Below are positions 1 through 39,763 of a stretch of 64,000 nt of DNA, piece after piece; the stretch's first letter is position 1; every line of letters begins with the position of its first letter. The DNA lies in NCBI GenBank assembly GCA_905221615.1, contig CAJNDT010000613.1:718501-782500 (forward strand). Reading direction: 5' to 3'. This DNA comes from Symbiodinium sp. CCMP2592 (lineage: Eukaryota > Sar > Dinophyceae > Suessiales > Symbiodiniaceae). The notes under the pieces are model-generated. The model ran no database searches, was not told the DNA's origin, and worked only from the letters and a program-made list of their open reading frames with translations. The position numbers and the translations under genes were made by a program.

Positions 1-649
1 TCTGCCCTGGCAGGAAGCACACGTTCAAGGTCGGAGTCATCACGTACTACACCGAACTCAAGGTGAAGGGGTTCAAGAAGTGCCTTGCCTTGTAAGTGTT
101 AATTGGGCTTCTATTGGAGGTCAGTTGTCGAGTGGACTTCTGTTCAACCGCCCTGAACGAAGGGGCAGCCCAGCAAACCCAAAACCCCACAAAACGACCA
201 AACCCAAAGCCTTGCATTAGAGAGGTGGAGGGAAAGTATTTTCCATTCCTGTGCCCGGGCTCCGATCATCATATCAAATTGGTAATTCCCGTGCACCCCT
301 TGCACACGTATGCATCGAATTTACAAAGGCTTCTTCGGTTAGCCTTAAGCTACAAAACCATGGCAGCCGTCACTACCGATGGTCCTCCATGCCCATTCGT
401 GCCATCTCATGACTTTGAACGACAAGCTGAAGCCTCCGGCCCAATTTCCGAGCTGATGCATATTCCTGCATGAGAAAAAGCTGTTTCACTCTGATGCTGT
501 TCAAAACTAAATGCCTAGACATTTCTTACGCAGACAACAGAAAGAAACTAATTCAAGCCCGGCACGGACTTGTTCAAGGTCTCGACACGGCGGTAGATCT
601 GTGGAATGCTGTATATTCCAAGCTGGATGAAATCAATGGCAATCCTTGA
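1..649 (+). CDS. Gene A, 3' exons (left copy, partial)
   Basis: The 3' part of gene A; the complete gene is at 14712-17833. One segment reads HTFKVGVITYYTELKVKGFK and ends at a GTAAG donor near 90. A second short coding stretch lies near 207-282. The terminal exon follows an acceptor near 535 and reads NRKKLIQARHGLVQGL onwards to the stop TGA at 647-649. The 5' part would lie upstream of the window. Function unknown. Confidence 0.6.
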
Positions 650-728
650 ATCGAAGTACCCTTTCGGGAATTTTTCCTCTGATGTTCTTCTCCTCACTTG
701 AGCTTCCGATCCTTGTCGCCCTTCCGCC

Positions 729-830
729 ATGATGGCAAACAGCTTGGATTTGAATCCACTAGAACTATAAGCGCTGAGCCAGGAGAAAGGCTTTCAGGTG
801 TTGTGGTGTTTTATGGTGTGTTGGGGTTCG

Positions 831-891
<61 letters not shown>

Positions 892-2904: not shown

Positions 2905-3399
2905 TTTAGCTGCTTAGCTTCGGCAACAGCCTCGCTTTGAGAGCTAGATCAAAGGCTGTTTTTGAAAAGCCGATCCTTTAATGCCAGTCTGTACAGTGTT
3001 CGCAGGTGCCGCAAGTACTCCAATATATATATACATATATAATAGGATTATGTGTTGTATTTACGAACATAGAAAGCACTGCCCTGACATCCTGCAATCG
3101 GCACTGCAGACGGGCCTTCGGTAGCTTCAGGATGCCAAAACAACGGACCACGATATGCGCTATAGTTCCTATAGGATGCAATCTGATTACCTCATATCCA
3201 CACAAACGCCAGGCTCCACCGACCTCCAGAGTCCAGCTCTGGAAGCATTGGCCGACACCGTGGCTGATGGTGTCACGTGCCATGAATGTTGTGGAATACA
3301 GGGGGTATGTTGTTTCTCTTCGGGGTTTGGGCTGGGGTTTGGGCTTTCGCGGTGTTGGGTACCCCAACCGATGCAATCTATCTTTCATTAGCACCACTC

Positions 3400-4010
3400 T
3401 TGTTCCTCGAAACAACAAAGCCTTCCACCCCAAACCCCGAACCCAAAACCCTGAACCCTCGTATCCCAAACCGTGTACACCCTGAACCCTGTAAATCTAT
3501 CCTTCATTAGCACCACCCTTAATTGTTCCTCGAAACAACAAAGCCCTCCACCCCGGTTTCAAAACCCTGAACCCTCGTATCCCAAACCGTGTACCCCCTG
3601 AACCATGTAAATCTATCCTTCATTAGCACCACCCTTGATATGGGCAACTTTCCTCGTAACAACAAAGCCCTCCACCCCAAACCCCGAGCCCAAAACCCTG
3701 AACCCTCGTACCCCAAAACGAATACACCCTTCCATGAACCCTGTAAATATATCCCCAACTCGTATAATTGTTCCTCGAAACAACAAAGCCCTCCACCCCG
3801 ATTTCAAAACCCTGAACCCTCGTATCCCAAACCGTGTACCCCCTGAACCATGTAAATCTATCCTTCATTAGCACCACCCTTGATATGGGCAACTTTCCTC
3901 GTAACAACAAAGCCCTCCACCCCAAACCCCGAGCCCAAAACCCTGAACCCTCGTACCCCAAAACGAATACACCCTTCCATGAACCCTGTAAATATATCCC
4001 CAACTCGTAA
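3400..4010. repeat. 245-bp tandem repeat upstream of gene C, left copy
   Basis: The segment beginning gtaaatctatccttcattag at 3607 recurs at 3852, a period of 245 bp. Each unit contains smaller related blocks built from cctcgaaacaacaaagccct, aaccctgaaccctcgta and ccctgtaaat. The array ends just before gene C. Reading frames through it give no convincing protein. Confidence 0.9.
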
Positions 4011-4046
4011 ACTATAGCCCCCGGCCGATCTCAGGCTCCAGCGAAG

Positions 4047-5915
4047 ATGATTGGGCAAATCGCCCGAGCTTTCAGAGATGAGCATAATTTGCAGTCGTTG
4101 GGTCAAACCTCAGCAGGTGTTGCTGCGGCGGCTCAGGTTCATACAAACCATGGAGAGAGGGATGCTCATAGGGCTTTTAAACGGTTCGGTCTCACGCTAA
4201 AGGTTCCTGTATCAGAGCTTACAGTACCTGCTGAGGGAGACCCCGCGATCATTCCTTACCTCAAGGTTGTTGACTTCTTTACATGCCTTCTAAAGAATCA
4301 TCCAAAGGTCTTGTTTGGAGGCATGCCTATCGGAGAAAGCAGCCAAAAGCAGTGTCAACAATTCTGGGAGAGGTTCAAGCTTGCACAGCCGGACCACGCA
4401 GTCTTCGAAGCCTACCCATCCCCTGAGGACTGGAAAACGATTGTACCCTTATGCATTCACGGAGATAAGGGGAGAGGGAGGTCCAAACTTCCTTGCTATG
4501 TCTTTTCATGGGAGCCTTGTATAGGTATTTCGGAGGATGTTCGGCGGAAGGGTCCTGGTTGGCGAAGCCCCGGTGTTCACGGCAACAAACTATCATGGTC
4601 TTGCAAGAAAAGAAAGCGAGAGCAGTGTCCGGACCTCGATCGCGATGAACTTCCGGGTGCATGTGAATCGTGCCCACTGCATCACGAGCATCGCGCCGAC
4701 CCCGAGCATGCCAGCATCCCGCACAATTCGAAGGGCCATTCCTTCTTGAGCAAATTCTTGTTTACTGCAATTCCGCATAAAGTCTTCAAAGATAACGAGG
4801 ACGTAGTTCCGGCCTTGCTGGATGCTCTGGCCGACGGCATGCTTGAGCTTTTCACCACCGGGGTACAGCACAATGGGCTGTGCTTCCGAGCAGCCGTATG
4901 TGGGATCAAAGGTGATCTGGAGTTTCATCATGAAGCCTGCTCGTATGACCGCTGTTATAATACTGCCGGAACAAAAAACAATCTGCTGATGTGCCCGCAG
5001 TGCCACGCCGGCACGGATCAGTGCCCATACACGGATGTTTCAGATTCCCCTGCATGGGCCTCGACAAACTTTGCTTCCTTGCCATGGACCGAACTTCCAA
5101 GACTTAGTCGCATTCCTTTTAGCAGCTCAAGGCCAGCGGCCTTTCACCGATGGGACGTTTTCCATTGTTTGAAGTTCGGAATTTTAAAGGACTTGGTGGC
5201 ATGTGTGCTCATCGAACTGGCAGGGCATGGCATGTTTGATTTTGAAGCTCGAGGGGCAAGTAAGGGGTTGCCAGCACGCCTAGAAAGAGCCCACATGCTC
5301 TTCAAGATGTGGTGTGTTGCCGAAAACCGCACCCCGAACATCCGCAAGTTCACGAAGGGAACATTGCATGTCACGAAGAAAAAGATTGGATTCCCAGTTC
5401 TTGGTGGCAAAGGTGCTGATGCTGTGCTGTGCTGCATGTTCCTGCAATTTTTCCTGAGACTGAACCTCCCAGAGGTTCAGTCTGCTGATCTGAAGAGATT
5501 GCTGAAAGCAATGGAAGAGACCATCGCTGGCGCACTGGATTTCGTGGGGGTGCATCATTCACACCCAGCATTTTTGAAGCCATATTGTGCAAAGTTTATC
5601 CATGTGTCAGGGATGAAGCTTCTGAGAGGCTACGCATACCTTGCAAACAGGGCTATCCGAGAAGGCAAGAGGCTGTATAGTCTACGGCCAAAACTCCACT
5701 ACTATCACCACGTACTGATGGACTTGGAAAGCCAAATTCGACAAGGACATGAATGGTGCTTGAATCCGGCCATTTTCGGGTGCGAAAGTAACGAAGATTA
5801 CATCGGCCGAGTATCAAGGATATCCCGAAAAGTGAGCCCTAAGATTGCAAGCCGGCGAACGATTGATCGCTATTTGTTGGCGGTTAAGCTGTTGTTCCGA
5901 AAGCATGGCCTTTGA
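4047..5915 (+). CDS. Gene C, left copy: 622-aa zinc-cluster protein, transposase-like
   Basis: Uninterrupted 622-codon ORF from ATG 4047 to TGA 5913-5915. It has two cysteine/histidine clusters: CESCPLHHEH (about residues 205-215), and CSYDRC followed by MCPQCHAG (about 300-320). Acidic residues sit in well-spaced contexts: CIHGDKGRGR, GIKGDLEFHHEAC just before the second zinc cluster, and CESNEDYIGR near the C-terminus. An Asp directly before a CxxC cluster recalls DDE transposases of the EnSpm/Plavaka type; this is inference from pattern only. The C-terminus is basic. I see no terminal inverted repeats around it. Upstream coding-like stretches near 3090-3300 could be earlier exons, so the true start is uncertain. 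Confidence 0.75.
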   Translation: MIGQIARAFRDEHNLQSLGQTSAGVAAAAQVHTNHGERDAHRAFKRFGLTLKVPVSELTVPAEGDPAIIPYLKVVDFFTCLLKNHPKVLFGGMPIGESSQKQCQQFWERFKLAQPDHAVFEAYPSPEDWKTIVPLCIHGDKGRGRSKLPCYVFSWEPCIGISEDVRRKGPGWRSPGVHGNKLSWSCKKRKREQCPDLDRDELPGACESCPLHHEHRADPEHASIPHNSKGHSFLSKFLFTAIPHKVFKDNEDVVPALLDALADGMLELFTTGVQHNGLCFRAAVCGIKGDLEFHHEACSYDRCYNTAGTKNNLLMCPQCHAGTDQCPYTDVSDSPAWASTNFASLPWTELPRLSRIPFSSSRPAAFHRWDVFHCLKFGILKDLVACVLIELAGHGMFDFEARGASKGLPARLERAHMLFKMWCVAENRTPNIRKFTKGTLHVTKKKIGFPVLGGKGADAVLCCMFLQFFLRLNLPEVQSADLKRLLKAMEETIAGALDFVGVHHSHPAFLKPYCAKFIHVSGMKLLRGYAYLANRAIREGKRLYSLRPKLHYYHHVLMDLESQIRQGHEWCLNPAIFGCESNEDYIGRVSRISRKVSPKIASRRTIDRYLLAVKLLFRKHGL

Positions 5916-6223
5916 GATCTGCTCCTATAATTCCCGACCTTATATAAGCCCGCAATCCCACTACAGAATTTTTTTCAAGCCCGTTATCCTGATCCCTTCA
6001 GTGTATATAAGGCTCCGGCTGATGCGAGCATGGTCTGCAGGAGCAAATCGACATGGGCGGTTGTAGCCACGATTCCCTTTGCAAGACAGTATGTAGCCCT
6101 GTGGGGCAGCTAATTTTTTAGAAGATGTCCATGGCAGGTTGTGTTTTGTCATATAAGGACGTGTGGAGCCGAGAGGCCCGCCGAAAGCGCCATCAACCCC
6201 ATTCCTGTCCCCCAAAAAGCTTC

Positions 6224-6323
6224 NNNNNNNNNNNNNNNNNNNNNNNNNNNNNNNNNNNNNNNNNNNNNNNNNNNNNNNNNNNNNNNNNNNNNNNNNNNNN
6301 NNNNNNNNNNNNNNNNNNNNNNN
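6224..6323. other. Assembly gap of 100 N
   Basis: Exactly 100 N, the usual length for a gap of unknown size. The left flank ends in ...aaaaagcttc, a point that in the right copy of the duplication continues without interruption into other sequence. Confidence 0.99.
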
Positions 6324-15319: not shown

Positions 15320-17833
15320 TAGGATCGGGTTTAAGGGTGTGTGGTTCGAAGGGGGTTGAGTTGTTCCGGTTTGGACTGCATAATGTTAACTGCAGAACGC
15401 ACACACACATGCATGTGTGTATATATATATATATGTATATGTATATATGTATACTCATGTATGCATGCACATCTTCACCCCGCATGTGACAGTGAAGCCC
15501 GACAGGCTTCTGCCGGTGGAGACGCAGAGATGGAAGAGACGCTTCTTGAATCTGCTGAGCCTCCCGAACAGATTCCGAGCCCGACGCCAGCTCTTCCCGA
15601 GCAGACCAATCCGAGCCCGACGAGTGCAGGATCCCCGGCAGCTCTTCCCAAGCAGACCAATCCGAGTCCGAGCCCGACGAGTGCAGGATCCCCGGATGCT
15701 CTTCCCAAGCAGACCAATCCGAGTCCGAGCCCGACGAGTGCAGGATGCCCACAAGCTCTTCCCAAGCAGACCAATCCGAGTCCGAGCCCGACGAGTGCAG
15801 GATCCCCGGCAGCTCTTCCCAAGCAGACCAATCCGAGTCCGAGCCCGACGAGTGCAGGATCCCCACAAGCTCTTCCCATGCAGCCCAATCCGAGTCCGAG
15901 GCCGACGAGTGCAGGATCCCCGCCAGCTCTTCCCAAGCAGACCAATCCAACCCCGAGCCCGACGAGTGCAGGATCCCCGCCAGCTCTTCCCATGCAGCCC
16001 AATCCAACCCCGAGGCCGACGAGTGCAGGATCCCCACAAGCTCCTCCCAAGCAGAGCTTGCTTCAGACAAATGCACCGCCAGCGCCGCCGGCCAATCCGA
16101 GCCCGACAGGTCCGGCAAAATCCCCACCAGCTCTTCCCAAGCAGAACCCAACTCCTCCTGCCAAGCAGAGCTTGCTTGTGTCAAAAGCTCGTGCACCTCC
16201 CGCCCCAGCTTTTGCCGGACCTGCTCCGACAAGTGCCGCCATAGACCGCCGGCTGAGACGCATAATGACGCCAAACAGTCGAGGAGTGCACAAAGTCTCC
16301 GAGCAGGTACGTGCTATGTATGGGGATCCCGACCAGAAGCATAAGGTCATCAAGCTCTTCCAGAACTGTGGGTACTGTCCTGAAGCGTTTGTGAAGAAGT
16401 TTCGCTTTACTGTGCAGAAAGAGCACGAAAGCGAAGTGGAAGTTCCATTCGAATTTCTGTCCAAAGAAGAAATGTCCATGGATCCATACAACATGACGGA
16501 GCTACTTGGCTCACTCTACACACATGTATACGTACATTATGTATTTACACATGTACAGACATGCATGAGAAACATATATTACATTTATACAGACACACGC
16601 ACACACACGTATAGACACGGTCTGCATATACATGGATAACATATACATATATGTAGATATATATATATATATATATAATATACATAACACATAATGTAGG
16701 GCGGTACCCTGTATACGGTCAAATATTCACAGGCATGTTGTGCATGTGCATTCGCACACATGACACGTTTGGACACACAGGGCTCATATGTAGGCTGCTT
16801 CATTTCCTCTGTACCCCGAATTTAACCCGATCGATAACCATCCTCATGCAAAACAAACTCAGGGCCGACATCGCTGAAGTGGTTCGCAAGGCGGAGGATG
16901 ACCCGGCGAAATTCATCAGGCACTCGCTTTCAGTTGGTTCGATACGGGTTTCATATGGGTAAACTTAGAATAGGCTTTGGATTTATGCTCCGGGTTAAAA
17001 GTGTATGTATAAGGACTCGAGGTTCTATATGGGGTATATTAGGGACGCCAATTAAACATATAGACCCTCTTATACGATCTCGAAATGTTACAGTAACCTC
17101 AAGTGAAGCACAGCCCAGAGCCCAATCTAAAGCCCCCGGCAAGTCTCCACACGCCAAATCAGGCAAAATGAAGAGAGCCATCCTTCTGCCCTGGCAGGAA
17201 GCACACGTTCAAGGTCGGAGTCATCACGTACTACACCGAACTCAAGGTGAAGGGGTTCAAGAAGTGCCTTGCCTTGTAAGTGTTAATTGGGCTTCTATTG
17301 GAGGTCAGTTGTCGAGTGGACTTCTGTTCAACCGCCCTGAACGAAGGGGCAGCCCAGCAAACCCAAAACCCCACAAAACGACCAAACCCAAAGCCTTGCA
17401 TTAGAGAGGTGGAGGGAAAGTATTTTCCATTCCTGTGCCCGGGCTCCGATCATCATATCAAATTGGTAATTCCCGTGCACCCCTTGCACACGTATGCATC
17501 GAATTTACAAAGGCTTCTTCGGTTAGCCTTAAGCTACAAAACCATGGCAGCCGTCACTACCGATGGTCCTCCATGCCCATTCGTGCCATCTCATGACTTT
17601 GAACGACAAGCTGAAGCCTCCGGCCCAATTTCCGAGCTGATGCATATTCCTGCATGAGAAAAAGCTGTTTCACTCTGATGCTGTTCAAAACTAAATGCCT
17701 AGACATTTCTTACGCAGACAACAGAAAGAAACTAATTCAAGCCCGGCACGGACTTGTTCAAGGTCTCGACACGGCGGTAGATCTGTGGAATGCTGTATAT
17801 TCCAAGCTGGATGAAATCAATGGCAATCCTTGA
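14712..17833 (+). CDS. Gene A: Pro-rich repeat protein with a conserved C-terminal region, multi-exon
   Basis: Likely start is the ATG at 14712 (MSFESLPTRRGSTETLARGL...), with a donor at a CAG/GT near 14862. A second exon begins after CGCCAG near 14967 (DIFEQLTDGVIDIP...). The long third exon (about 15490-16510) holds an acidic start and about eight copies of a 57-bp unit encoding roughly SPAALPKQTNPSPSPTSAG. A folded-looking region follows, beginning AIDRRLRRIMTPNSRG and running through VIKLFQNCGYCPEAFVKKF. Later pieces are RADIAEVVRKAEDDPAKF (near 16860), HTFKVGVITYYTELK (near 17200) and a terminal exon ending at TGA 17831-17833. Junction phases near 15050 and 17190 could not be fully resolved, so borders are approximate. 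I do not recognise a named domain. The region after the repeats resembles a lineage-specific dinoflagellate family; this is inference. Confidence 0.6.
15250..15320. repeat. (AT)n microsatellites
   Basis: Two AT tracts separated by a short ggtctatat spacer, within an intron of gene A. A further tract is near 15420-15455. Confidence 0.95.
15620..16060 (+). repeat. 57-bp coding tandem repeat in gene A
   Basis: About eight units of 51-57 bp around gcagctcttcccaagcagac and ccgacgagtgcaggatcccc. The unit length is a multiple of three, so the reading frame is kept and a Pro/Ser/Thr-rich 17-19 residue repeat results. Units differ by a few substitutions (Ala, Asp, Gln or Pro after SP; Lys or Met before Q). 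Confidence 0.9.
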
Positions 17834-17912
17834 ATCGAAGTACCCTTTCGGGAATTTTTCCTCTGATGTTCTTCTCCTCACTTGAGCTTCCGATCCTTGT
17901 CGCCCTTCCGCC

Positions 17913-18014
17913 ATGATGGCAAACAGCTTGGATTTGAATCCACTAGAACTATAAGCGCTGAGCCAGGAGAAAGGCTTTCAGGTGTTGTGGTGTTTTATGG
18001 TGTGTTGGGGTTCG

Positions 18015-18061
<47 letters not shown>

Positions 18062-20074
18062 CTCTCCGTCCCTCTCTTGCTCTCCTTGTCTCGCTCGGCT
18101 TCGTTTGTGAGGGTTGCTCGTTTGTGGGGGCAAAACGAATGTATGTTATTTTGTGAAGCCCGAAATCAGCCCATTGCCCAGGCAGAGTGCCCGCAGCAGT
18201 GTCACGGAGGAGCAAGAGTTTCTGGACGAGGACCAGGATGCTGTGGAGATGGATATGTCTAATGACTTCGTGTTCGGCCAGAGCAGCTCTGCCCTGCCAT
18301 CCCAAGGTGGGCACGCTACGATGTTTTTCTTGAGTTATCAGCCCATGTCTTGCAATACAGCTTGCAACCTGCATGTGGTTTGCGTCATTCGTCGTATACA
18401 AGCCAATCACTAAACTTGTTCGGGTCATGTGCACACAGCCACCAAACCCCGAAGCTCCGAAATGTCGGATCCAGATAACGAATTATACAAAACCCCCTAT
18501 AGCTCTGGATCCCTGTACAACTATATATGAAAAGCCCAATGTCTGGATTCTACAAATATCATCCATAAACCTGCCAGAAACAGTTCGTACAAGCCCCTTT
18601 CAAAAACCTCATAGTAAACCCTATATAAGCATAATCCCTAAAAAGCCCTAAACCCAAAACCCTCCGAAGTATATAGGATTCTACTGATGCCGTCTAATCC
18701 CATGGAATACTTCCCCACAAAACCTTCTCACCAACAAGCCCTCGATCCCAACCTTTGCCACACGCACCCACCTCCGGTGCTATAAGGTGAGATCTCCACG
18801 GCCTCCAGGCAAGCAGCTGACCCAAATGTGCGGGACAAAATCCAGAAAGACGCCGAGAAAACACTCAAGAAACTTGGGTGGCCGGAACACGAAGAGGCCA
18901 TGGATGCATCGAGCACCCTGCCGAAGTGCATTCTATGCATAACAAGGAGACTTGCACGAGTGACGGACGTCCAGTCTAACCTCGAGAAATTCCTCCCGCC
19001 CCCACCGCCTGAAAATGCTTCAGCCGAAGTGAAAGAGAAGTATGCAAAAGGGATTCGACAGAAGCTGCTGGTTGCAATAGTTCTGATCATGATCTTTACT
19101 TTTTGCAGGTTGCTGGTCGATCTTATAAGTCCAGGGTTCACCGATCTCCCTGCAATGGGCCCAGGATGATTGCAAAGCTGCAAGCTTGCTACAACGACCT
19201 GGATTCCGTGAACGACGAGCTTGCAGAGCTCAAGGCCACCGGTCTTGTGGAGGGATTTGACTCGCTGTCTGGCAGCAGTTATGAGATTGTATGCGATTTA
19301 CTGTTTCGTAGCCCTTTGTGATAGAATTGGCATCGGTTTTTACTAAGGCTGCAGCCCGAGATTTGCAAGCAAGTGGAGGCTGCTCGCAAGAAGTGTCTTG
19401 GCTTGCAGGTTTCAAGGCTATATAGGGTTCAAGGGCCTCAGGGTACATATGGGTTTTATATATATATATAGTTTAGAGTTCTATACTTGCGGGCTTTGCT
19501 GGGTTTGTTTATATAAGGGTTGAGCATGGCACCCCCGGCCTCCATAATCGATCAGGTCCATCTTGTAGCCCCGACGCTTCCTTTTGTTTGGATCAGTTGC
19601 TCGCTATCATGCATAGGTCTTCTTTCTATTTATATGTATATATATATATATACAGACCATCCCCTACATACCTTCGTAGGTATGTTAGTTTAGCTTTTTC
19701 TCTGGGTAGCTCTGCATCTATATAGATATGTCGAATATTTTTCTATCCGCCCAGCTTATGTCCGTCTATTGTAATTACCTGGAAACAATCACTGGTATCC
19801 GAGGGTGGTGGAGAGCTGGGATCTCGAGTCTCGTGCAAGGACACCGTCTGTGATCATTGAGCAACCCATGCATCCTGCTGTTGAATAGGTGTGTGCAGCT
19901 TCGTAACATAAAGTGCTAGCGCCTGTGCCATTCTCCAGGATTCTGCTGCAAGACTATGCAAGCTCGGTGGCTGATGTCAAGCCCAAGTCGGGCAAAGCCA
20001 AGCCTCCAAGGCCCAAGGTGAATGTGCGACCGCCCCCGGCTGATGAGAAGCCGGCCAAGAGACAGAAGAAGTAG
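17913..20074 (+). CDS. Gene B, right copy
   Basis: Same exon structure and coding sequence as the copy at 729-2904. It differs by a shorter CT microsatellite in the first intron. It lies directly downstream of gene A (stop at 17833), leaving only about 80 bp between genes, which fits the tight unidirectional gene arrays common in dinoflagellates. Confidence 0.6.
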
Positions 20075-20573
20075 TTTAGCTGCTTAGCTTCGGCAACAGC
20101 CTCGCTTTGAGAGCTAGATCAAAGGCTGTTTTTGAAAAGCCGGTCCTTTAATGCCAGTCTGTACAGTGTTCGCAGGTGCCGCAAGTACTCCAATATATAT
20201 ATATATATATATATAATAGGATTATGTGTTGTATTTACGAACATAGAAAGCACTGCCCTGACATCCTGCAATCGGCACTGCAGACGGGCCTTCGGTAGCT
20301 TCAGGATGCCAAAACAACGGACCACGATATGCGCTATAGTTCCTATAGGATGCAATCTGATTACCTCATATCCACACAAACGCCAGGCTCCACCGACCTC
20401 CAGAGTCCAGCTCTGGAAGCATTGGCCGACACCGTGGCTGATGGTGTCACGTGCCATGAATGTTGTGGAATACAGGGGGTATGTTGTTTCTCTTCGGGGT
20501 TTGGGCTGGGGTTTGGGCTTTCGCGGTGTTGGGTACCCCAACCGATGCAATCTATCTTTCATTAGCACCACTC

Positions 20574-21184
20574 TTGTTCCTCGAAACAACAAAGCCTTCC
20601 ACCCCAAACCCCGAACCCAAAACCCTGAACCCTCGTATCCCAAACCGTGTACACCCTGAACCCTGTAAATCTATCCTTCATTAGCACCACCCTTAATTGT
20701 TCCTCGAAACAACAAAGCCCTCCACCCCGGTTTCAAAACCCTGAACCCTCGTATCCCAAACCGTGTACCCCCTGAACCATGTAAATCTATCCTTCATTAG
20801 CACCACCCTTGATATGGGCAACTTTCCTCGTAACAACAAAGCCCTCCACCCCAAACCCCGAGCCCAAAACCCTGAACCCTCGTACCCCAAAACGAATACA
20901 CCCTTCCATGAACCCTGTAAATATATCCCCAACTCGTATAATTGTTCCTCGAAACAACAAAGCCCTCCACCCCGATTTCAAAACCCTGAACCCTCGTATC
21001 CCAAACCGTGTACCCCCTGAACCATGTAAATCTATCCTTCATTAGCACCACCCTTGATATGGGCAACTTTCCTCGTAACAACAAAGCCCTCCACCCCAAA
21101 CCCCGAGCCCAAAACCCTGAACCCTCGTACCCCAAAACGAATACACCCTTCCATGAACCCTGTAAATATATCCCCAACTCGTAA
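20574..21184. repeat. 245-bp tandem repeat upstream of gene C, right copy
   Basis: The counterpart of 3400-4010, with the same unit number and order. Confidence 0.9.
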
Positions 21185-21220
21185 ACTATAGCCCCCGGCC
21201 GATCTCAGGCTCCAGCGAAG

Positions 21221-23089
21221 ATGATTGGGCAAATCGCCCGAGCTTTCAGAGATGAGCATAATTTGCAGTCGTTGGGTCAAACCTCAGCAGGTGTTGCTGC
21301 GGCGGCTCAGGTTCATACAAACCATGGAGAGAGGGATGCTCATAGGGCTTTTAAACGGTTCGGTCTCACGCTAAAGGTTCCTGTATCAGAGCTTACAGTA
21401 CCTGCTGAGGGAGACCCCGCGATCATTCCTTACCTCAAGGTTGTTGACTTCTTTACATGCCTTCTAAAGAATCATCCAAAGGTCTTGTTTGGAGGCATGC
21501 CTATCGGAGAAAGCAGCCAAAAGCAGTGTCAACAATTCTGGGAGAGGTTCAAGCTTGCACAGCCGGACCACGCAGTCTTCGAAGCCTACCCATCCCCTGA
21601 GGACTGGAAAACGATTGTACCCTTATGCATTCACGGAGATAAGGGGAGAGGGAGGTCCAAACTTCCTTGCTATGTCTTTTCATGGGAGCCTTGTATAGGT
21701 ATTTCGGAGGATGTTCGGCGGAAGGGTCCTGGTTGGCGAAGCCCCGGTGTTCACGGCAACAAACTATCATGGTCTTGCAAGAAAAGAAAGCGAGAGCAGT
21801 GTCCGGACCTCGATCGCGATGAACTTCCGGGTGCATGTGAATCGTGCCCACTGCATCACGAGCATCGCGCCGACCCCGAGCATGCCAGCATCCCGCACAA
21901 TTCGAAGGGCCATTCCTTCTTGAGCAAATTCTTGTTTACTGCAATTCCGCATAAAGTCTTCAAAGATAACGAGGACGTAGTTCCGGCCTTGCTGGATGCT
22001 CTGGCCGACGGCATGCTTGAGCTTTTCACCACCGGGGTACAGCACAATGGGCTGTGCTTCCGAGCAGCCGTATGTGGGATCAAAGGTGATCTGGAGTTTC
22101 ATCATGAAGCCTGCTCGTATGACCGCTGTTATAATACTGCCGGAACAAAAAACAATCTGCTGATGTGCCCGCAGTGCCACGCCGGCACGGATCAGTGCCC
22201 ATACACGGATGTTTCAGATTCCCCTGCATGGGCCTCGACAAACTTTGCTTCCTTGCCATGGACCGAACTTCCAAGACTTAGTCGCATTCCTTTTAGCAGC
22301 TCAAGGCCAGCGGCCTTTTACCGATGCGACGTTTTCCATTGTTTGAAGTTCGGAATTTTAAAGGACTTGGTGGCATGTGTGCTCATCGAACTGGCAGGGC
22401 ATGGCATGTTTGATTTTGAAGCTCGAGGGGCAAGTAAGGGGTTGCCAGCACGCCTAGAAAGAGCCCACATGCTCTTCAAGATGTGGTGTGTTGCCGAAAA
22501 CCGCACCCCGAACATCCGCAAGTTCACGAAGGGAACATTGCATGTCACGAAGAAAAAGATTGGATTCCCAGTTCTTGGTGGCAAAGGTGCTGATGCTGTG
22601 CTGTGCTGCATGTTCCTGCAATTTTTCCTGAGACTGAACCTCCCAGAGGTTCAGTCTGCTGATCTGAAGAGATTGCTGAAAGCAATGGAAGAGACCATCG
22701 CTGGCGCACTGGATTTCGTGGGGGTGCATCATTCACACCCAGCATTTTTGAAGCCATATTGTGCAAAGTTTATCCATGTGTCAGGGATGAAGCTTCTGAG
22801 AGGCTACGCATACCTTGCAAACAGGGCTATCCGAGAAGGCAAGAGGCTGTATAGTCTACGGCCAAAACTCCACTACTATCACCACGTACTGATGGACTTG
22901 GAAAGCCAAATTCGACAAGGACATGAATGGTGCTTGAATCCGGCCATTTTCGGGTGCGAAAGTAACGAAGATTACATCGGCCGAGTATCAAGGATATCCC
23001 GAAAAGTGAGCCCTAAGATTGCAAGCCGGCGAACGATTGATCGCTATTTGTTGGCGGTTAAGCTGTTGTTCCGAAAGCATGGCCTTTGA
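21221..23089 (+). CDS. Gene C, right copy: 622-aa zinc-cluster protein
   Basis: Same ORF as 4047-5915 with two amino-acid changes in one short motif: FHRWDVFH in the left copy is FYRCDVFH here. Both frames are otherwise intact. That argues for a very recent split or for allelic copies, and against decay. Confidence 0.75.
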   Translation: MIGQIARAFRDEHNLQSLGQTSAGVAAAAQVHTNHGERDAHRAFKRFGLTLKVPVSELTVPAEGDPAIIPYLKVVDFFTCLLKNHPKVLFGGMPIGESSQKQCQQFWERFKLAQPDHAVFEAYPSPEDWKTIVPLCIHGDKGRGRSKLPCYVFSWEPCIGISEDVRRKGPGWRSPGVHGNKLSWSCKKRKREQCPDLDRDELPGACESCPLHHEHRADPEHASIPHNSKGHSFLSKFLFTAIPHKVFKDNEDVVPALLDALADGMLELFTTGVQHNGLCFRAAVCGIKGDLEFHHEACSYDRCYNTAGTKNNLLMCPQCHAGTDQCPYTDVSDSPAWASTNFASLPWTELPRLSRIPFSSSRPAAFYRCDVFHCLKFGILKDLVACVLIELAGHGMFDFEARGASKGLPARLERAHMLFKMWCVAENRTPNIRKFTKGTLHVTKKKIGFPVLGGKGADAVLCCMFLQFFLRLNLPEVQSADLKRLLKAMEETIAGALDFVGVHHSHPAFLKPYCAKFIHVSGMKLLRGYAYLANRAIREGKRLYSLRPKLHYYHHVLMDLESQIRQGHEWCLNPAIFGCESNEDYIGRVSRISRKVSPKIASRRTIDRYLLAVKLLFRKHGL

Positions 23090-23397
23090 GATCTGCTCCT
23101 ATAATTCCCGACCTTATATAAGCCCGCAATCCCACTACAGAATTTTTTTCAAGCCCGTTATCCTGATCCCTTCAGTGTATATAAGGCTCCGGCTGATGCG
23201 AGCATGGTCTGCAGGAGCAAATCGACATGGGCGGTTGTAGCCACGATTCCCTTTGCAAGACAGTATGTAGCCCTGTGGGGCAGCTAATTTTTTAGAAGAT
23301 GTCCATGGCAGGTTGTGTTTTGTCATATAAGGACGTGTGGAGCCGAGAGGCCCGCCGAAAGCGCCATCAACCCCATTCCTGTCCCCCAAAAAGCTTC

Positions 23398-28451: not shown

Positions 28452-31400
28452 CCGAAGCCATGAAAAACGAAGCGCAACATCAGCAGTTAAGGTGATGGAC
28501 AGGGCAGCATACAATCTGAGAGGGGGCCCAGGCATAAGTAGTATATTACAGACTTGAAAAATTGCAATGGAGTCTACTACTTTTTGCAGCTTCATGCTAG
28601 CTGCTACCTTCGGGAAGTGGACGAACGCCCGTGCCATTTGTTATGGCTGTTTCCATTCAGCCACTTCAACTACGCCACCTCCGTATTATCACCTTCACAC
28701 TGGTGTGTGCGTGTGTGTGTGTCAGCCTTGTTTGTCTTTGGTTACTTGCAGGATCATGGGACTTAGTAAGTAAGGTTATAAGAGCAAGCACCCACACCTC
28801 ACATCCTATACCCCACCCTACACTTTCACCTCAATTCTCAACCGGCCTCCCAAAATCAACATTCCAAACCCCAAAACACGAAGCACAACCCAACTCAACG
28901 CAAAAAAACCGAACACAACCCAAAACACAAAGCACAACCTAACTCAACACCAAACTCCCGAACACAACCCAAAACACAGAACAACCTCCCCAAATCCATA
29001 ACACAAACCCCGAACGCAAGCAAAACAAAACAACCTCACCAAAACCCAAAACACAAAGCACCTCCTAACTCAACACCCGTCCCCAAAGCAAAACAAAAAA
29101 CAAAAGAACCGCCTTTACCCCACACCTCAAAACCTTCTCACCCTAAAGTCTTCACAAAAGACGCTCACCAAAGCATCACGAAGCATTCGCTCCATGCCCC
29201 TACATAGAATTTTACTAAAATTAATTAGTAAACTGCTATTTCTGCTTTTCCGTTCATCATTGTATAAAGTGTTGCCAGACCCTATGGTTCTTGTTGCTGT
29301 TCTGTGGTGTTCTCAGCTTGCTTGCTTAAATTATGTTGATGCTTTTTTTCCTATGCGCTGATTGTGAACTTCTGTTAATATCGCAGTCGCATACTTCGCA
29401 CCTCACCGTTAACAGTCTATATGCTTTGTTGTTGTCCACATTTTGTTCCCTGTATTCTTTTTTCTACCAACAACCTTTCGCGGTGGTTCTCTCTGTATAT
29501 TTTATTCTTGTTTCTACATAAGTCGCAAGTTTTACATCCTTCCTTAAACAATCCTATATCACGGTTTACTTTACATGAATTACAGAAGGTTTTGTCAGTA
29601 TTCATTCTTTCTCTATTATATTAAGTCACCTTTTCTTTCAATGATTTTGTTAAATACGCGTTTATGTATAATACAACATTTAAGAATACTCCCTTTGTCA
29701 GGGTCGTATTTAATTTCGTAATATGCCAATGTCTCACTTTTCGGATAGTTAACATGAAGATTATTCAGTTTTTTCAGATACACACTTCTTTTATTCTTAT
29801 ATGTCTCACTATCCTTATCCATAGGTTTATTAACGGGTTTAGGTTTATTAACTTCAACAAGTTTTTCTATTATTTTTCAATTAGTTCTAACTTCTCCAAA
29901 ATTTTATGGGAACTGATACGCTTAATCGGACGCTCATCATCTACATCGCTCATTCTATATAAAAGCTTTAGACTAAAACTTGTCTTCAAAAGTGTTATCA
30001 AAGTGCGTTTTAGCATCTCTCATAAAAGCATATAAGTTCTTGAATTTACGATACTTATCTAAACACCTCCTACATAGTTTATTATAATCCTTGTTGTTGT
30101 TATAACTTCTAAACAATTGCTTATCCTTAGACAACTTACAAACAGGACAGTATTTGAACTCAAATATACCATAGTCATTTCCACCCTCATCCGTATGATA
30201 AAACGATACTACAATCTTATCTACATAGCTAACCATATATAATAACTTACGTAACCTTTTTTCATAATAACCAAAAATTATGAACAAAAGTTGAATTACG
30301 ATGCCATCTTATGTAGCATCAATTATGTTATTGAGTCTCATCTACTTCCCCTTCAATAAGACCATCAACAACTTGGGGGCACAAAATCGGGCGGTGGCAC
30401 TTGAAGTCTCTGTTCCAGGGGTGTCTGTCATACAAATATGTAAATTTGTTTTTATATAAGTTTTCAAGCCATTGAATTTAAACGGTTTTGTTTTTTACTC
30501 ATCTAATTCTTTTTCTAATTTCATTATTCTTTCCTCTGTCTGCATCTTCTGGTGTAATCGAGCGACTACCTCCTGCCTTTCCCCATCCCGTATCAATAGT
30601 ATCTATATCTTCCTTATCTTCTTTATTTGTTTTGAAAATGTCATTGCAGTCGGATGTAGTCCCGCGACCATTACCTAGTCTCCACGATGACCTGTTTTCA
30701 ATTTGACTTACTACTTAATTGCCTTCCTTGTCCGTTGTTGTTTTTGTTTCTGTATGATATGCTTTTTTCCCGCACCTACAAAAATTACAGTTTATACTGC
30801 TTGTATCAATATGAAAGTTTCCTTTGCTTTCTTCCTTCTTGTCGCGAATGCCTCGCGAGGCGTCAGCCGACGCGTCGCTCATTTATCTTATTTAGACTTT
30901 TCTTTCTTGAAATGCAAAACAACGACTTTTAGCATTTCTAACAATGTAAAGCGACATCATTTGTATTTAGGCGATGCTACTATCTGTTCCACCTTCTCCA
31001 ATTCATCTATCGCATCTTAACACTCTTTCATTATATATTAATAAATATAATAATCCTATGTAATTATAATCATGAATATCCCAACTATTGAACCGATAGA
31101 CATACCCGAATATAAATACAAAGACTCCAATTACGATATGATGCCTTCTTTACCTGCTCGTATGTTATGTGTCGCTTCATCAAAAGGAGGCAAAACCGTT
31201 TTAATTCAGAACCTCATTATTTTAAAAATATACAGAGGAAGTTTTCAAAGAATATACATATTTAGTCCCAGCGTAGACGTCGATGACACATGGAACGCCG
31301 TAAAGAAATGCATTAAAGATGTTATGAAGGTGGATACCGATAAAGAGAAAGTCTATTATGACGAGTATGACCCAGTCGCTTTAAAGAAAATAACTGACAC

Positions 31401-34400
31401 CCAGCACAAAGTAACAGAATTCCAGAAGAAAAGCAAATCAAAAGACCTGTATAGCATCTTAATCATTATTGACGATTTCGCAGATGACCCTAAGTTTGTC
31501 CGATACAGCAGTCTATTACACGGACTTTTCACGAGAGGAAGACACAATGCCATCAGTTGTATTTTATCCACTCAAAAATGTAATGTTTTAGCACCCATTA
31601 TTCGTTTAAACTCGTCCGCGTTGTTTATACTCAGGTTGAAGAATATGAATGAGGTTAATGCTTTTCTGGATGAGAACAGCGCCTTAGTTGATAAACAGAA
31701 ACTCTATGATATGTATCAACAGGCGGTTAATGATGCGCCTTACTCATTCTTCTATATAAGCACGAATGCAAAAGATGTTAAGAAAATGTTTTACATCAGA
31801 TTTGACAAAGTATTTAGTCTTGACGAAGTCGAAGCAGATGATTAATGGGTTCTCAAGTCAGAAGAGACCAAAAACGCTGGGCGCGCGAACCGGCCTAAAG
31901 CCATCTATTTATATGCCGAGAAAAGCTATAACGAACTATCTGACAACCCTTGAAACCCAACGGGACGCCAACCGAGGCAAAGTATCCAATCAAGTTATGA
32001 CGAAGTTAAACAATGTCGTGGAATTATACAGAGACCGCAAAATATCTCAGTTCACGACAGCTTTAAACCTGATTAATGGGATGACTTTAGGAAACAGCAA
32101 AGCGAAGGAGAAGGGGATGAAACAAAACGAAAAGGCGGTAGCAAAATACGAAGATGCAACACCAATCGGGGAAAGGATGAAAGCAACAACGAAGAAAGCA
32201 AGGAAGGGCAAAGAAATCAAAGAAGTTGTTAGGAAAACTGACAAGCAACTCATAATGAAGCGAAAGGCCATCGGCGGCTTATCGACAAAGGCAAAAGAAA
32301 TTTTCAAGAACAGGAAGTATTACGATGTCAAGTTTATGCTTTTTTCTAGTCAAAGCCGTTCAGGTGTTAAAAAGGCATCATTTATACTGGATGGTGTAGC
32401 ATATTATCCCTTAATTCTTCTGACCCGTGGAAACGCAAGTGCAGTCGGGACTGCTAATGTCAAGTCAAACGAATTCATTGAAACACTGGTTAAGAGGAAG
32501 ATAAGAAATACCACGATACTGTCAAGTTCTTATTTAGAAAACTGATGATTACTATGAATTCAAGTAGCGAGTTTCCAGAGAATTCTCATTTGGTAGAATA
32601 CGCAGATGCCATCAGAATTGAAAGCGTTGAGATTGTTGAAACAGACACGGGCGGATACGACGAGAGAGAAGAACCATTACAACAAGGCAACAGCATAAGC
32701 ACATATTACAGACACATCCAAACCGAAGTCAATGCCGAAGCGGAGACTATGAAAGAGGCACGACACAAAGAAAATTACAGAGAAAGCGAATGTTGGATAA
32801 ACGCTCTACTGGAAAACTTTGAAGGAACTAATCTAACAAAAGAAAAACGGCAACAAAAGAACACAAAAACATTACGTCGCAATAAAGTCCTTGAACTGCT
32901 GGATATGACGGAAGAAGAATTTATTAATACAGGGGCGACGATAAACCACGGTTTAGACACATTAAGGCAAGTCCAACCGAAGGATAAATGCAACGCCTTC
33001 ACAACAAGCGAGTTTTACATAACCGATAGGACAGAACCGGTTGAGTATAAAATGTTTGACAATGTAGATGAACTGCTGAAAATGACCGATAGGGAAGAAT
33101 ATGCTTTGATACATTCGGATAATGACTTGGTTAAGGTCTTCCATCAACTGAACGAAGCGGGATAGAAACCGCACATCAACTATCAAGCAGGGATGATTAC
33201 CAACATCTTGTGTAAGTTTTGCTACAAGAAGTTGAAGAAATACATTAAATACAACATTGTCTCCCAGTGTTTATCAAAAGAGCGAATTGACGAAGATGTA
33301 ATAGCTGATAATGAAGAAGTGTATAACAAAACAACCACAACTATGTTTAACTTACAGAAAGAATTTTTTGAGGAAAATCATTTATCCTTTTATAACGAGG
33401 TAGATATACGAATCCTTAAAGAGTGTAAAACCATAGTGCCAGTGGGTAGGTTTTATAAAGATGCGCCAATCAGGAAGATAAAAGAAATAGACATTAACAA
33501 GCATTTCCCCACGCAGGCGGGAGTATAAAATACATCCCAACATATAGACAGTTTGACATCTTTAGACCCTTTAATGAAGATTGTGGCACTGATCAGTTTA
33601 ACAACCTGACGTTATTCATTGTAGAAGTGTATGAAGGAAACACATTTTTAATAATAAGTATTGTTTAGTGTATGGAAGGTTTCTAAAGAAACTGCTGAAA
33701 CGCAATGTTAAACTGAAAATCTTATGGTATATGCAACCGAGTAATATTTACAAGGTAGATTATAAAAAATTGATAGATGACTTGTACGACAGATGACGAA
33801 AATTTCAACAAACAGACGCAAAAGAAACTGTGGAACATCAGCGTGGGGATGTTGGAGAAATCCCACAACACAAGTCAGCGAAGTAGCACCTTTACTTCAT
33901 TGAAGGAGGCATGTTATTATCAAAGCATCCACGGCGGAAAGGTCTCTACTACAAGCGAGTGTCAGACAGAACTTAACGAAGTAGATGAAGACGAATTTGA
34001 AACAAGGGAGACGGAAGGAACTAAATATTATGTGTTAAGTGCGTCGGAAAAGAAGACTTTGATAAATGGGTTCATGTATATCAAGGAGTTGGTACTACAA
34101 TATCATAATTTCAAGATGTATGAAGCATACAAGACATTAACCGATAATAACATCAAGGTATATAGTGTTAAGACAGACTGCCTCACCATCCACGAAAACG
34201 ATGTGGATAAGGTGTATGGATACAGAATTTTTGACGTGTGTGGATAGAAGGACTGCTTAAATTTGGAACGGACATTGGCAATTGGAGACTGGAAAAAAAG
34301 AAAATCATTACACTGCCTAGGCAGTTATACACATACAAGTTTAACGAAGTGCCGGCAATCCCGAAAGTTAGTAATGTAAAAATTGAGGTTGAAGACGAGT

Positions 34401-37400
34401 GGGTCACGAAAGCCATTTGCGAACAAGTAGTACGGAGAAACCCTTGTTTAATCCGTGCTCGTTTCGCAGGTAGTGGGAAGAGCTATATAGGCGAATACTT
34501 CCAAACATTGGGCGAGAATGTTTTGTTTGTAGTGCCAACCAAAAGACTTTTACAAGAGAAGGAAGTAGAAGCAACAACATATAACAAGTTTTTCAGCATT
34601 GCCGTTCATGAAGATGTGGGGGAGAAGTTGCCACAGTTCGATTATAGTGATTTTAACATAATTGTGTTTGATGAAATCTATATGTCAAACCTGCATGTTT
34701 TAGATAAGGTCAGACAGTTTATTAAGAAATCTCCCCGGTAAAATCGTAGCTGCGACAGGTGATGTTAAACAATTACAGGGGGTTGGAAGCAATGACGAAC
34801 TGCCAGAACCAAGCAACATACATTGACAACTGCTTGGATATAATATTTAAATACAACATTTTCCTGACTGTTTGTAAGAGAGTAGGAGCGAAGGACAGCG
34901 AGGAAGGAGACAGAAACAGGCAAATCATTAATAACATGTATGAGGACTTCTGGGAAAAGAAGTTGCCATTTGAAGAGATGATACCCAAATATTTTGAAAC
35001 AACTGACGACATCATGGCATCGGAGCATAACATTGCTTATACAAACATAAGATGCCGAAATGTAGCAAATGAAGTCAGAGAAAGGTCGAACAACAAAGAT
35101 AAATACGAAGTAGGAGAAACACTCATTGCCAAAAAATGAATTAAACAACCAAGGGTAAATGTAAATCTACGGTATAGAATTACGAGCATACAGCAAGATG
35201 AACTCGGAGCGCAAATAACTTTACAAAATATAGCGAATGAGGAAGATGAGTTTATGTTATTTGAACCTATCGTGTATGCCAACTTCGTTTACTCGTATTG
35301 TGCAACTTGTCATTCAAGTCAAGGGGCAAGTGTCAAGGGAAGTATAACGATACACGAACACGGCCTACCAATAGCAAGTAAGGAGTGGTTGTGGTGTGCA
35401 ATAACAAGGTGTGTTGATTTTAAACAAGTGAAGTTTTACAAGAGTAACGACTATGAGAAACGAGATATTTTAGAAACAAGGTTGAGAATTACAAACTACA
35501 AAACCGGAAGGCAAAGAGAGAGATAAACGAAGAAGAATACATAACCCCAGAGTGGTGATTGAAAATGTTTAAAAGCAGGTGCGAGAAATGTAATACATCG
35601 TTCAATTTTGAAACCAATCAAGGCAAGTTATGTAGCAACTTTACAGCACAACGACCATGTAATGATTTCGGGCATCACTTAGATAATTGTTGTGCTTATT
35701 GCTTCTACTGTAATGTCAGGATTCATTGAATAATAATAATAATAATAATGAGTTTTGCTATTATTATTTATATGAGTTTGGATAAGCAAAAATCATTAAT
35801 GATATTTGTTATGACCGCTCGGGTTTTGGAAGTAGGGCGACTACGCTTAAAGATGCCAAAGAGAAAGACAAAAGCATCACGAAAGAGGATGTTGAAGAAC
35901 TCTTTAAAAGAATGTTGAAGAAAAGAGACGCCCGAGACGTGAGAATAGTTTTGTGGGGTGTTTTTTGAGTTCCAGTTGGATTTGTTCTTTATAAGTAGCC
36001 ACGATTTAGAAAACCAGAAGTTTAGCATAGGTATGGTTTTGATTGATATTTTTTGTTTTAGTAAGTATGCTACCGTCATACCTATTAAGAGCAAGGAAGC
36101 ACCGGACATAATAGCGGTAATAATGGAGGGGATACAAAAAATGGGCGGAAAATCGAAGATGTTCTATTCGGACGAAGAACCGAGTTTGTATAGCAACCCA
36201 GTTATGGAGTATTTGGAAAAGGACAAGATAGAAATACATAGAACACGAACATATAAAGATATGTTGTTTAAGCGGATTGAGGCAGTTAAAAAATGGGTAA
36301 GCACAACACACAATGGATAGATTATAATTTAGAAACATTATTAACATATAATAACCAAAATGTTTCATCGGCGACTAAAATGACGCCCATAGAGGCACGG
36401 AAAAAGAGAAATGAATTTGTTGTTAAATTAAACATATCTACTCAAGCGAAAAGAGGCAGGGTGTATCCCGAAATAGAGGTCGGGGACGATGTTAAGGTAA
36501 TGCGTAAAAAAGGCATCAGCGAAAAGGATAAAACTTCGCCGTCAGGAAAATAGAGAAAAAGTTAGGTCAAAACTGTTACTATTTGGGTAATGATACACGC
36601 GGGCATTTGCGCCACGAACTGTTAAAAGTGTAACAAAATTCTTTACTTTCATATTCTATTCCTGATTTTATGTTTTGATTTTGTTGTTTTTTTTGTGTGT
36701 TTTTGTTTGTTTGTGATATGTTTTGCTATATGTTTTGTTAAGGGTTGTTAAAAATGGATTTTCAGAAATTTCGTTAGAGATTGGTGCAAATTCTTTACTT
36801 TTTATGCTTTCTTCCTGAATCGATTTTGTTTTGAAGTTTATGACAAATCCTATAACCTTTGACAATTCATGGTTTGTCCACAAAGTTACAAACAAAAACG
36901 ACAACAAGCTCTTAACGCCCAGCCGAAAACGTCTAAACCCAAGAATCCTCAAGCTCTCGCTTTCCACTCCTTGTTTTCTCCCAGTTCTGGGATGGTTGGT
37001 TTAAAACCCTCCTAAACGACGACGCCCTAAACCTAAACCCAGAACCCTGCGAAAAGGTTACGGCTCAGGTTAGGGTTTTGGGGGTTAACTTATTTTAATT
37101 CAGGAAATGTATTCCCGGACCTAGAAGACACAGCTCATTTTCTTTTGGACCACAACCTTTTTGGCTCTGATGCAACCACTCCATGCAAGCCTTTACGTTT
37201 ACTTTTCCAAAGATGTCAAATGCAGTTCAGCAGGTGGAGCTAAACAGGGTTTCTGTACGTCAGTTGAAGCTGTGCCATTGTTGTTGCTTTATGGCAAGCG
37301 ATTCGGAAAGCGATTCCTCTATCGAGGAGTCGTCGACTGAGTATGTGTACCGCACGTGCTTTTTCTGCAACCAATCTATGCAAAGTCTGACGTTTTTCTG

Positions 37401-39763
37401 GTGTGTACACTCGGGAAATGAGCACAAACTATTGGTTTGCCAGCAGTGCGCCCAGTCCGGTGAGGCTACGTGCCCAAGCCGGTGTTGTCGTCGCATCATT
37501 CTGGCGGAGGAGCTGCAAACAGAGTCCGAACATTTTGCTTGCCATCTCGCTCAGCATGGCATCGACGAAGATGTAAATGGCACAAGGACAAGCATTGACC
37601 GTGCTAGAGCAATGCTAGTCTTTCGAGTCTTTCGTGACCGTCATTTGAGGTTTCGCTACAGACTTTATGCTTCCCCGGACGAAGCAATACTGAGTCTGAG
37701 CACGTGCGAGGGGATCGTATTTGCTTTCGACAGGCAAAATTGCCGCTTGACCCGCGAGTTACAATCGTCAGCATCAGCCGACTTTAATATTCTTCGCCCG
37801 TGCGCGTGGTTGGCTGCGTGGTCAATGAGTATGATTCGTTAGCAGTGCGGCTTAGTCAACTATGACCAGTTGAAGTTGGGTGTTGGACTTCTTCATGAAC
37901 GTTTAATGAGGGCGGGCATCATGCCAGGTGATGCTCGCTATGGGTTTGGCCCCATTCAACACGCCCTTTACGTGCTGGCTACGCAAGAGGGTCGATGGTT
38001 TTACTTCTATGCATTCGATATGGAAGATGCAGGCATTTCCGCCATGAAGCGATGGCGGATTGGCAGCATTCTGTTCCACGCTGATTTTCAGAACGGACAC
38101 CTGCTCGGCGAGGTTCAATGTGGTTGCTCGTGGTGGACCCGCGCACAAATTAGAGAGAAGACTGCTTCCTTGATTATGCAGGAGGCTTAGTCTAGGTATG
38201 AGCTACCAACTGGCATCTGCTTTATGAAAGACTTTGCTACCTACCACTTAGCGTTTAGGGTTTAGGATTTGGGGGATTAAGGTTTAGGGTTTAGGGCTTG
38301 AGGAGTGACAGTGGGGTTTAGGGGTTTAGGTCTTAGAGATCAAAGGCTTCGGGTTTAGGGGAGGGCTTTTGGGAAGGAAGGTTTTGAGGTGTGGGGTAAG
38401 GGCGGTTCTTTCGAATTTATTTTGCTTTGGGGTTTTGTGTTGACGCGTCGGCAGACGCCTCGCGAGGCTTCGCGATTTGGGTTGTGCTTTGTGTTTTGGG
38501 TTTCGGAGGGTTGAGGTGTGGGGTAAGGAGGTTCTTTTGATTTGTCTTTTGCTTGGGGTTTTGACGAGGTTGTTGTGTTTTGGGTTTTGTTTTGGGTTTT
38601 GGCGAGGTTGTTGTGTTTTGATTGTGTTATGGGTTTTGGGAAGGTTGATTTTGGGAGGCGGGTTGAGAATTGAGGTGAAAGTGTAGGGTGGGGTATAGGA
38701 TGTGCGGTGTGGGGTTAGCATCTGCTTGCTATAGGTACCTGAATTGGGGTTACAAGTATAGTTACCCTACTTACAACCTTACTTACAAAGTCCCATGATC
38801 CTCCAAGTAAGCCAGGCCTTACCTTGCCTCGGTTCCCGCGCCAAGGTGTTCTCACCTCATACAATTCTGATCGCAGCAACAGCAGGAGCTGGTCCCGCAG
38901 GGCTGTGCCTTGTCTGCAAGTGAATGAATGTTCGAATTTGACAGTGCCACAGGGCTCAGGGAATTGAAAGTTCTTTGTTAGTCTTTCAACGCAGCATGAT
39001 AGTGAAGCTTAAGCTACTTAACGGATCATGGGACTTGGCAACTAGGGTTAGAATTAGGACAAGTATACTTATTACCCCAATTAAGGTACCTATAACCTTA
39101 TAATTACTTACTAAGTCCCATGATCTTCCAAGTACCGGCAAGCTGGACTCCAGACCTTGCACGTCTGCTTGTCGGATCTTGTTTTGTATGCGCTGCATGC
39201 CTGCCCTACACCACATGTATGAAGCAATCCATCGGAGCCTTCATCACCAAACGTCGTGGCGCACCTTCTTAGTGTTCTTTAACTTCCTTTAAATTTTTTT
39301 GGGGTATTATACCCTCGATATCATCCCACAGGTCAACCTTAACGTCCCCATAGGATACTGAAACTGGTAAGCCTAAGCAGGAGTGTGTTTTGCCCTCGGA
39401 ACTCCAGTCGTTTAGCATCCCGACACCCGTGAGTAATTCACATCCTACAAGTCTATATGCACCGAAGACATGCAACAGCAGCCCTTCAGTGAGCACGGAG
39501 CAATCTTGGGGTACTTGGAGAATGGGGCTGCGATGTGAGGTTCAGGGTTGTTGTCTCTGGAGAGCAGAAGTTTCCATGAGTTCGAAAGTGAATGCATAAA
39601 AGGGCCGACTATAGGCTTGAAAGGCAAGCCCAAGATACAAGTCATGAAATTCGGAAGTCTCGGACTCCGTAGATGATGCGAGCCTTCAGGTCTTGGGCTT
39701 CAGGTCTGAATCCTCCATTCTGCCAGCCAACGATTCCATATTACATGGGCAAGCATGCATATG

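Follow-up and report, generated by a model that had tools for sequence, protein, structure and literature searches.

A Polinton-like element, apparently of the Tlr1 kind, nested within a short inverted-repeat element in a Symbiodinium contig

Polinton-like viruses (PLVs) are given a size range of 14–40 kb in PMC12220804, and those resembling Tlr1 are characterised in PMC11071308 by a C-terminal superfamily 1 (SF1) helicase, a motif C that lacks its first Asp, and the presence of an rve integrase in the same element. Nested insertions of viruses into transposons are already known in protists from the virophages of Cafeteria, whose endogenous mavirus-like elements (EMALEs) are reported with two insertion sites in introns and with target-site duplications (TSDs) mostly of 3–5 bp (PMC8547959). 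Dinoflagellate genomes contain, according to PMC10120064, many endogenous virus capsid genes, and no PLV inside a dinoflagellate miniature inverted-repeat transposable element (MITE) or introner was seen among the papers listed in the literature searches made for one. Here, a stretch of 64,000 nucleotides (the window; positions 718,501 to 782,500 of contig CAJNDT010000613.1, listed under Symbiodinium sp. CCMP2592) was analysed, in which a Polinton-like element of 9,948 bp is nested inside a copy of a short repeated element, termed family A.

Family A is approximately 112 bp long, starts with ACTTGGAGGATCATGGGACTTAGTAA and carries this end again, inverted, on the opposite side. With at most one mismatch in the end motif, and not counting the split copy, eight further copies or part copies were located (at 39016, 40978, 43497, 47055, 54446, 55792, 58760 and 59652), five of them complete (~112–120 bp) and three longer or single-ended. 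The sequence of the best intact copy is GGTTATAAGTACC; in the split copy, GGTTATAAG is followed by the insert AGCAAGC...GCTTGCT and then by ATAGGTACC. Its halves (28743–28782 and 38736–38809), one on each side of the insert, are unequal, comprising 40 bp on the left and 74 bp on the right. When joined (one base being omitted from the left half), they were identical to five intact copies from the window in 98 of 113, 98 of 116, 97 of 113, 94 of 120 and 92 of 112 columns, respectively. The junction was located by shifting the end of the left half from −12 to +12 bases and scoring each resulting sequence against three of the intact copies; the peak was the same for all three, with the left half running to 28782 and the right half starting from 38736. 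Since the joined flanks match best with one copy of the duplication dropped, the insert spans 28783–38730 and is bordered by ATAAG (28778–28782) and ATAGG (38731–38735), a 5-bp TSD identical at four of its five positions. A 6-bp duplication (TATAAG/TATAGG) would also be possible if the terminal T is excluded from the element; for PLVs, target duplications of 5–6 bp are stated in PMC12220804.

The family A halves could conceivably be the genuine termini of a composite element instead of an interrupted copy, since they form inverted repeats of each other. However, their unequal lengths, their joining at the corresponding internal base of the intact copies and the position of the target duplication between them leave this reading with almost no credibility. 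A preliminary reading of the same DNA (hereafter the first-pass annotation) had proposed that an element of ~9.95 kb with terminal inverted repeats (TIRs) parts two halves of one family A element. The junction scan, the joined-copy alignments and the TSD agree in bearing this out, and TIRs were indeed found at the element ends, with the extents listed in Table 1. The locus thereby documents to the base the integration of a virus-like element into a short transposon, of which the remaining copies reveal the empty target.

Judged by its genes and ends, the insert looks like a PLV of the Tlr1 kind, as it combines an A32/FtsK-type ATPase, an SF1 helicase on the C-terminal side, an rve integrase, TIRs and a TSD of 5 bp (or 6). 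The open reading frame (ORF) of the ATPase matches Pox_A32 at 1.4e-8, above the cut-off, and a terminase PHROG at 1.3e-16. Of 703 candidates, 439 were relatives at E ≤ 0.001; among the best 120 of these, the top one is 83% identical and many are located on long contigs. In the large replication gene, the first two ORFs (31838–32542 and 32545–33165) represent one protein, since all four relatives tried (P0121, P0125, P0130 and P0152) align across both; one-protein status is established for these two ORFs only. Two later pieces match a Dda-like SF1 helicase at 1.7e-4 and 3.6e-4, and the order on the plus strand (N-terminal region, KTD piece, helicase) places the helicase on the C-terminal side. 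The piece ahead of the helicase contains the motif YSVKTD, taken by eye as polymerase motif C, and the replication protein may include a polymerase domain, for which a protein-primed PolB palm would be expected in the Tlr1 kind.

The best piece of the integrase matches rve at 1.8e-4, and the open integrase of one IMG/VR viral contig (L001), which is itself above the rve cut-off (33.2 vs 32.6), aligns with the element in three stretches at 5.5e-14. This contig was the sole one matched in an ATPase alignment search of the IMG/VR viral contigs, and its ATPase is 50% identical to that of the element. Among its 51 stop-to-stop ORFs of at least 60 aa, the integrase and the ATPase alone match the element at E ≤ 0.01; a putative capsid ORF on it matches Pfam Capsid_N at 0.028, below the cut-off. 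Searching the IMG/VR viral contigs with the single ATPase query gave no match, nor did the N-terminal region, the helicase piece, or the TIR and family A patterns. A Polinton proper (Polintoviricetes) was considered as well and rejected, since a stand-alone protein-primed DNA polymerase B (pPolB) without a helicase would be expected together with a Ulp1 protease, whereas here the helicase pieces lie directly downstream and no protease match was obtained among the pieces scanned.

Several observations weigh against the assignment to a Tlr1-like PLV and its integration. At 9.95 kb, the element is short compared to the range stated for PLVs, and its TSD has a mismatch at one base in five. No Pfam or PHROG match to a polymerase domain was obtained for the pieces scanned, and the KTD piece gave BLAST E-values of only 0.19–0.35 against a 1,299-aa protein of L001, while the Pfam match to rve, taken alone, is under the curated cut-off (22.2 vs 32.6 bits). 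No major-capsid family was found among the scanned pieces, although a diverged or decayed one is possible and a dinoflagellate capsid was not compared; weak PHROG head or virion matches were seen on the replication piece 31838–32542 (0.042) and on the rve piece (0.014). Finally, the assignment does not account for the 1.5 kb of GC-rich DNA within the right end.

The element had also been credited in the first-pass annotation with a viral replication and packaging module. The packaging part of that claim stands, with the ATPase ORF open, but the replication gene is broken, as is the integrase gene. Approximately 8 breaks in the 3.7-kb replication gene correspond to ~1.7 expected in the 0.77 kb of the ATPase, and the probability of finding none is ~0.19, so that there is no case for selection on the ATPase. 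The diverged TIRs (283 of 349 ungapped columns identical, with 43 gap columns), the mismatched TSD and the two broken genes make the element look like an old, decayed copy, though the TIR divergence may stem partly from internal tandem repeats.

With respect to composition, the element is AT-rich, with a GC content of 36.5% in 29150–36900 compared to 47–48% outside. Near 36900, GC rises from about 30% to 50%, and TTTAGGG telomere-like repeats, which are missing from the viral core, are back again ahead of the right TIR. The GC-rich segment starting there may represent host DNA that was captured, or else another insertion; clear ends of it were looked for and not found, and its cysteine-rich ORF yielded no relatives among 33 candidates and no Pfam match under 0.95. 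On L001, a cysteine-rich ORF (525–1280, minus strand) likewise lies beside the integrase, in a comparable placement. A 27-bp double palindrome, consisting of two adjacent hairpins, occurs twice, in opposite orientations, within the virus-like element (30850–30876 and 38442–38468; 96% complementary). As the left TIR is without one, the palindrome is apparently a small mobile insert.

Table 1. Coordinates of features in and beside the nested element, numbered from the first letter of the window
Feature	Position	Strand	Remarks
Left half of split family A	28743–28782	+	includes left TSD 28778–28782 (ATAAG)
Polinton-like element, apparently Tlr1-type	28783–38730	+	9,948 bp; ends AGCAAGC...GCTTGCT
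Left TIR	28783–29155	+	repeat mapping and alignment
Short open pieces	29329–30308	−	one with weak HNH-endonuclease match, E 7.7e-4
A32-type DNA-packaging ATPase	31072–31845	+	open ORF, 257 aa
Large replication gene	31838–35526	+	in about nine open pieces that overlap or adjoin
Conserved N-terminal region of replication gene	31838–33162	+	one protein in relatives
KTD polymerase-C-like motif piece	33777–34244	+	read by eye
SF1 helicase pieces	34235–34738, 35140–35523	+	Dda-like helicase family matches
rve-type integrase	35786–36553	+	broken, several open pieces
Host-like segment	36900–38375	+	GC 49% vs 36.5% in viral core; telomere-like repeats; cysteine-rich ORF 37183–37842
Right TIR	38361–38730	−	repeat mapping and alignment; has 27-bp double palindrome
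Right half of split family A	38731–38809	+	includes right TSD 38731–38735 (ATAGG)
Voltage-gated cation channel with C-terminal EF hands	39933–61480	+	nearest demonstrable host gene; outside element

The recognised exons of the cation-channel gene number 12 and start, in N- to C-terminal order, at 39933, 43135, 43723, 45870, 49812, 51572, 52411, 56140, 57179, 58907, 60839 and 61439. Lossless phase joins were obtained at six junctions, namely S2–S3, S6–S6b and four between EF-hand exons. The transmembrane part has matches to Ion_trans (2.2e-9; 37.3 bits vs a cut-off of 25) and to the "Ion transport protein" structure 6yz2 (4.6e-6), and an EF hand is above its cut-off (25.9 vs 25.4). These exon chains were cut by hand, and the scores vary with the cutting: other chains scored worse, a few-piece chain having no Pfam match, a longer one reaching 22.8 vs 25 for Ion_trans, and a third being without Ion_trans at E ≤ 0.01. 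Home-made exon chaining mixed genes, repeats and transposon ORFs, and was used solely for spotting channel pieces. For eight exons the end is defined; their donors are GT in three, GC in two and GA in three, in agreement with the GC, GT and GA donors described for Symbiodinium in PMC5177918. A G follows the AG at all 12 exon starts, which, with boundaries placed by hand, is a consistency check and not an independent count. The channel introns are rich in family A, TTTAGGG and other repeats, and a second repeated element, translating by eye as ...GVPYYNYSIMGPKTLF..., is found at 42.2, 44.1, 56.3, 57.3 and 62.3 kb, in and beyond these introns. Splice grammar, channel type and the wealth of TTTAGGG in the introns together suggest a dinoflagellate host.

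Two positions of the nest relative to this gene were weighed. The first is a 5' intron of the channel gene, with N-terminal exons upstream of 28.7 kb and the viral and host genes co-oriented, for which the chances appear slightly below even. Consistent with this, S1, the first recognised exon, begins 1.1 kb to the right of the split copy, and seven of the other eight copies of family A are located between exons recognised for the channel, with one just upstream of S1 and none (at ≤ 1 end-motif mismatch) in 1–28.7 kb. Owing to this clustering, the split copy may likewise be part of that intron-rich gene. On the other hand, no N-terminal exon was recognised upstream of 28.7 kb or within 38.8–39.9 kb, three end motifs with 3 mismatches at 11.2–11.5 kb might be diverged family A copies outside the gene, and the mean intron length given for three Symbiodinium genomes is 505–893 bp (PMC5177918). 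Alternatively, the insert may be intergenic, just upstream of the channel gene, in which case no transcript need cross it. No exon of any gene has been demonstrated to the left of the insert, as this position would have it, but the family A clustering speaks against it, and the whereabouts of the N-terminal channel exons would still have to be explained; its chances, too, fall a little short of one half. With no exon recognised on the left side of the insert, the intron and the intergenic position are considered about equally likely. Relics of the spliced leader were not found at thresholds of 21 nt with at most 4 mismatches or the last 14 nt with at most 1. That the element sits in a 5' intron of an expressed and spliced channel gene, as 10 kb of co-oriented viral DNA, and that the ATPase ORF also remained under selection after loss of replication and integrase, would be a decidedly improbable combination.

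Three layers had been claimed for the locus in the first-pass annotation. The Polinton-like element and the family A element with its TSD hold, but the outermost layer, a 10-kb intron spliced out of a host gene M on the minus strand (exons 38913–38856 and 28669–28608) with the viral genes antisense to it, is very unlikely. In its favour, the exon 38913–38856 has a good donor (GTGAGA) and a good acceptor (TTGCAG), and both exons are open and compatible in phase. Neither, however, has a Pfam match, and the best PDB match (E 2.2) is not significant; an equally good donor, GTAAGG, is present at 38822, and the acceptor of the exon 28669–28608 is purine-rich (31% pyrimidine). The exons also begin with A and T, compared to G in all 12 channel exons with their hand-placed boundaries. 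Moreover, phase-compatible AG...GT open pieces were present within a distance of 150 nt on both sides of 21% of random points on the minus strand and 30% on the plus strand (400 points per strand, with an acceptor threshold stricter than the second gene M exon meets). The minus strand of 20–48 kb likewise contains 222 AG-open-GT pieces of this size and set quality, compared to a mean of 256 (222–294) in 20 resampled first-order Markov sequences. The proposed exons are thus without a family match, at chance level in their splice candidates and atypical in their starts. The antisense arrangement falls with them, the demonstrable host gene being on the plus strand and co-oriented with the viral genes. 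Gene M instead exemplifies how easily chance open pieces are taken for exons in such a genome.

Taken as a whole, a history of family A insertion, followed by integration of a Tlr1-kind PLV and then by decay, is considered highly likely. In the first step, a non-autonomous family A element of ~112 bp would have entered host DNA, either upstream of the plus-strand channel gene or within one of its 5' introns. A Tlr1-kind PLV with a packaging ATPase, a polymerase-helicase fusion and an rve integrase would then have integrated into that copy, the integrase probably cutting with a stagger of 5 bases (6 being possible) and so leaving ATAAG and ATAGG on either side. Thereafter, the insert would have decayed, with its replication and integrase genes broken, its TIRs diverged and a capsid gene no longer recognisable.

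Elsewhere in the window, 1–6223 and about 17185–23397 form a duplicated segment, 17.2 kb apart and with 99.6% identity, the alignment of which stops at an N gap at 6224. Each duplicate contains a 622-aa ORF (4047–5915 and 21221–23089), the second of which was scanned and had no Pfam match.

Compared to known systems, family A fits the features of a MITE, being short, bordered by terminal inverted repeats, present in several copies and without coding capacity; TA was read by eye at both outer ends of some copies. It was also considered as an introner and rejected as such, since seven copies sit tens to thousands of bases inside channel introns and none was seen to form a whole intron. Family A is similar in length and TIRs to the introner elements described from Symbiodinium and Amoebophrya (PMC9860276, PMC7789003), and it occupies introns of a gene with GT, GC and GA donors, whereas the copies found here lie within longer introns. 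As regards the nesting itself, the EMALEs and Ngaro retrotransposons of Cafeteria (PMC8547959) offer the parallel of a virus-like element inside a mobile element (an EMALE in Ngaro4), and GC-rich inserts in AT-rich elements are listed there as well, a further shared feature; both the virus class and the host element are different from those at this locus.

The Tlr1-like PLVs, with Tetrahymena Tlr1 as the namesake (PMC11071308, PMC12721341), share with the element the rve integrase and a large replication protein in which the SF1 helicase is C-terminal and motif C lacks the first Asp (KTD here, as read by eye); its packaging ATPase and TIRs are as in PLVs. In contrast to them, the element is only 9.95 kb long, its genes are broken, no capsid gene was recognised in it, and its polymerase domain is not established by homology. 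OmPLV from the dinoflagellate Oxyrrhis marina, as described in PMC12721341, resembles it in the endogenous state, low GC, ATPase and TIRs, and its fused SF1 helicase and polymerase is, as is the replication gene here, split over several ORFs. However, OmPLV has an N-terminal helicase, a Y-recombinase, a capsid gene and no TSD, while the element described here has a C-terminal helicase, an rve-type integrase and a TSD. The locus thereby adds a Tlr1-type architecture, with C-terminal helicase and rve integrase, from a probable dinoflagellate, beside that of OmPLV with its N-terminal helicase and tyrosine recombinase.

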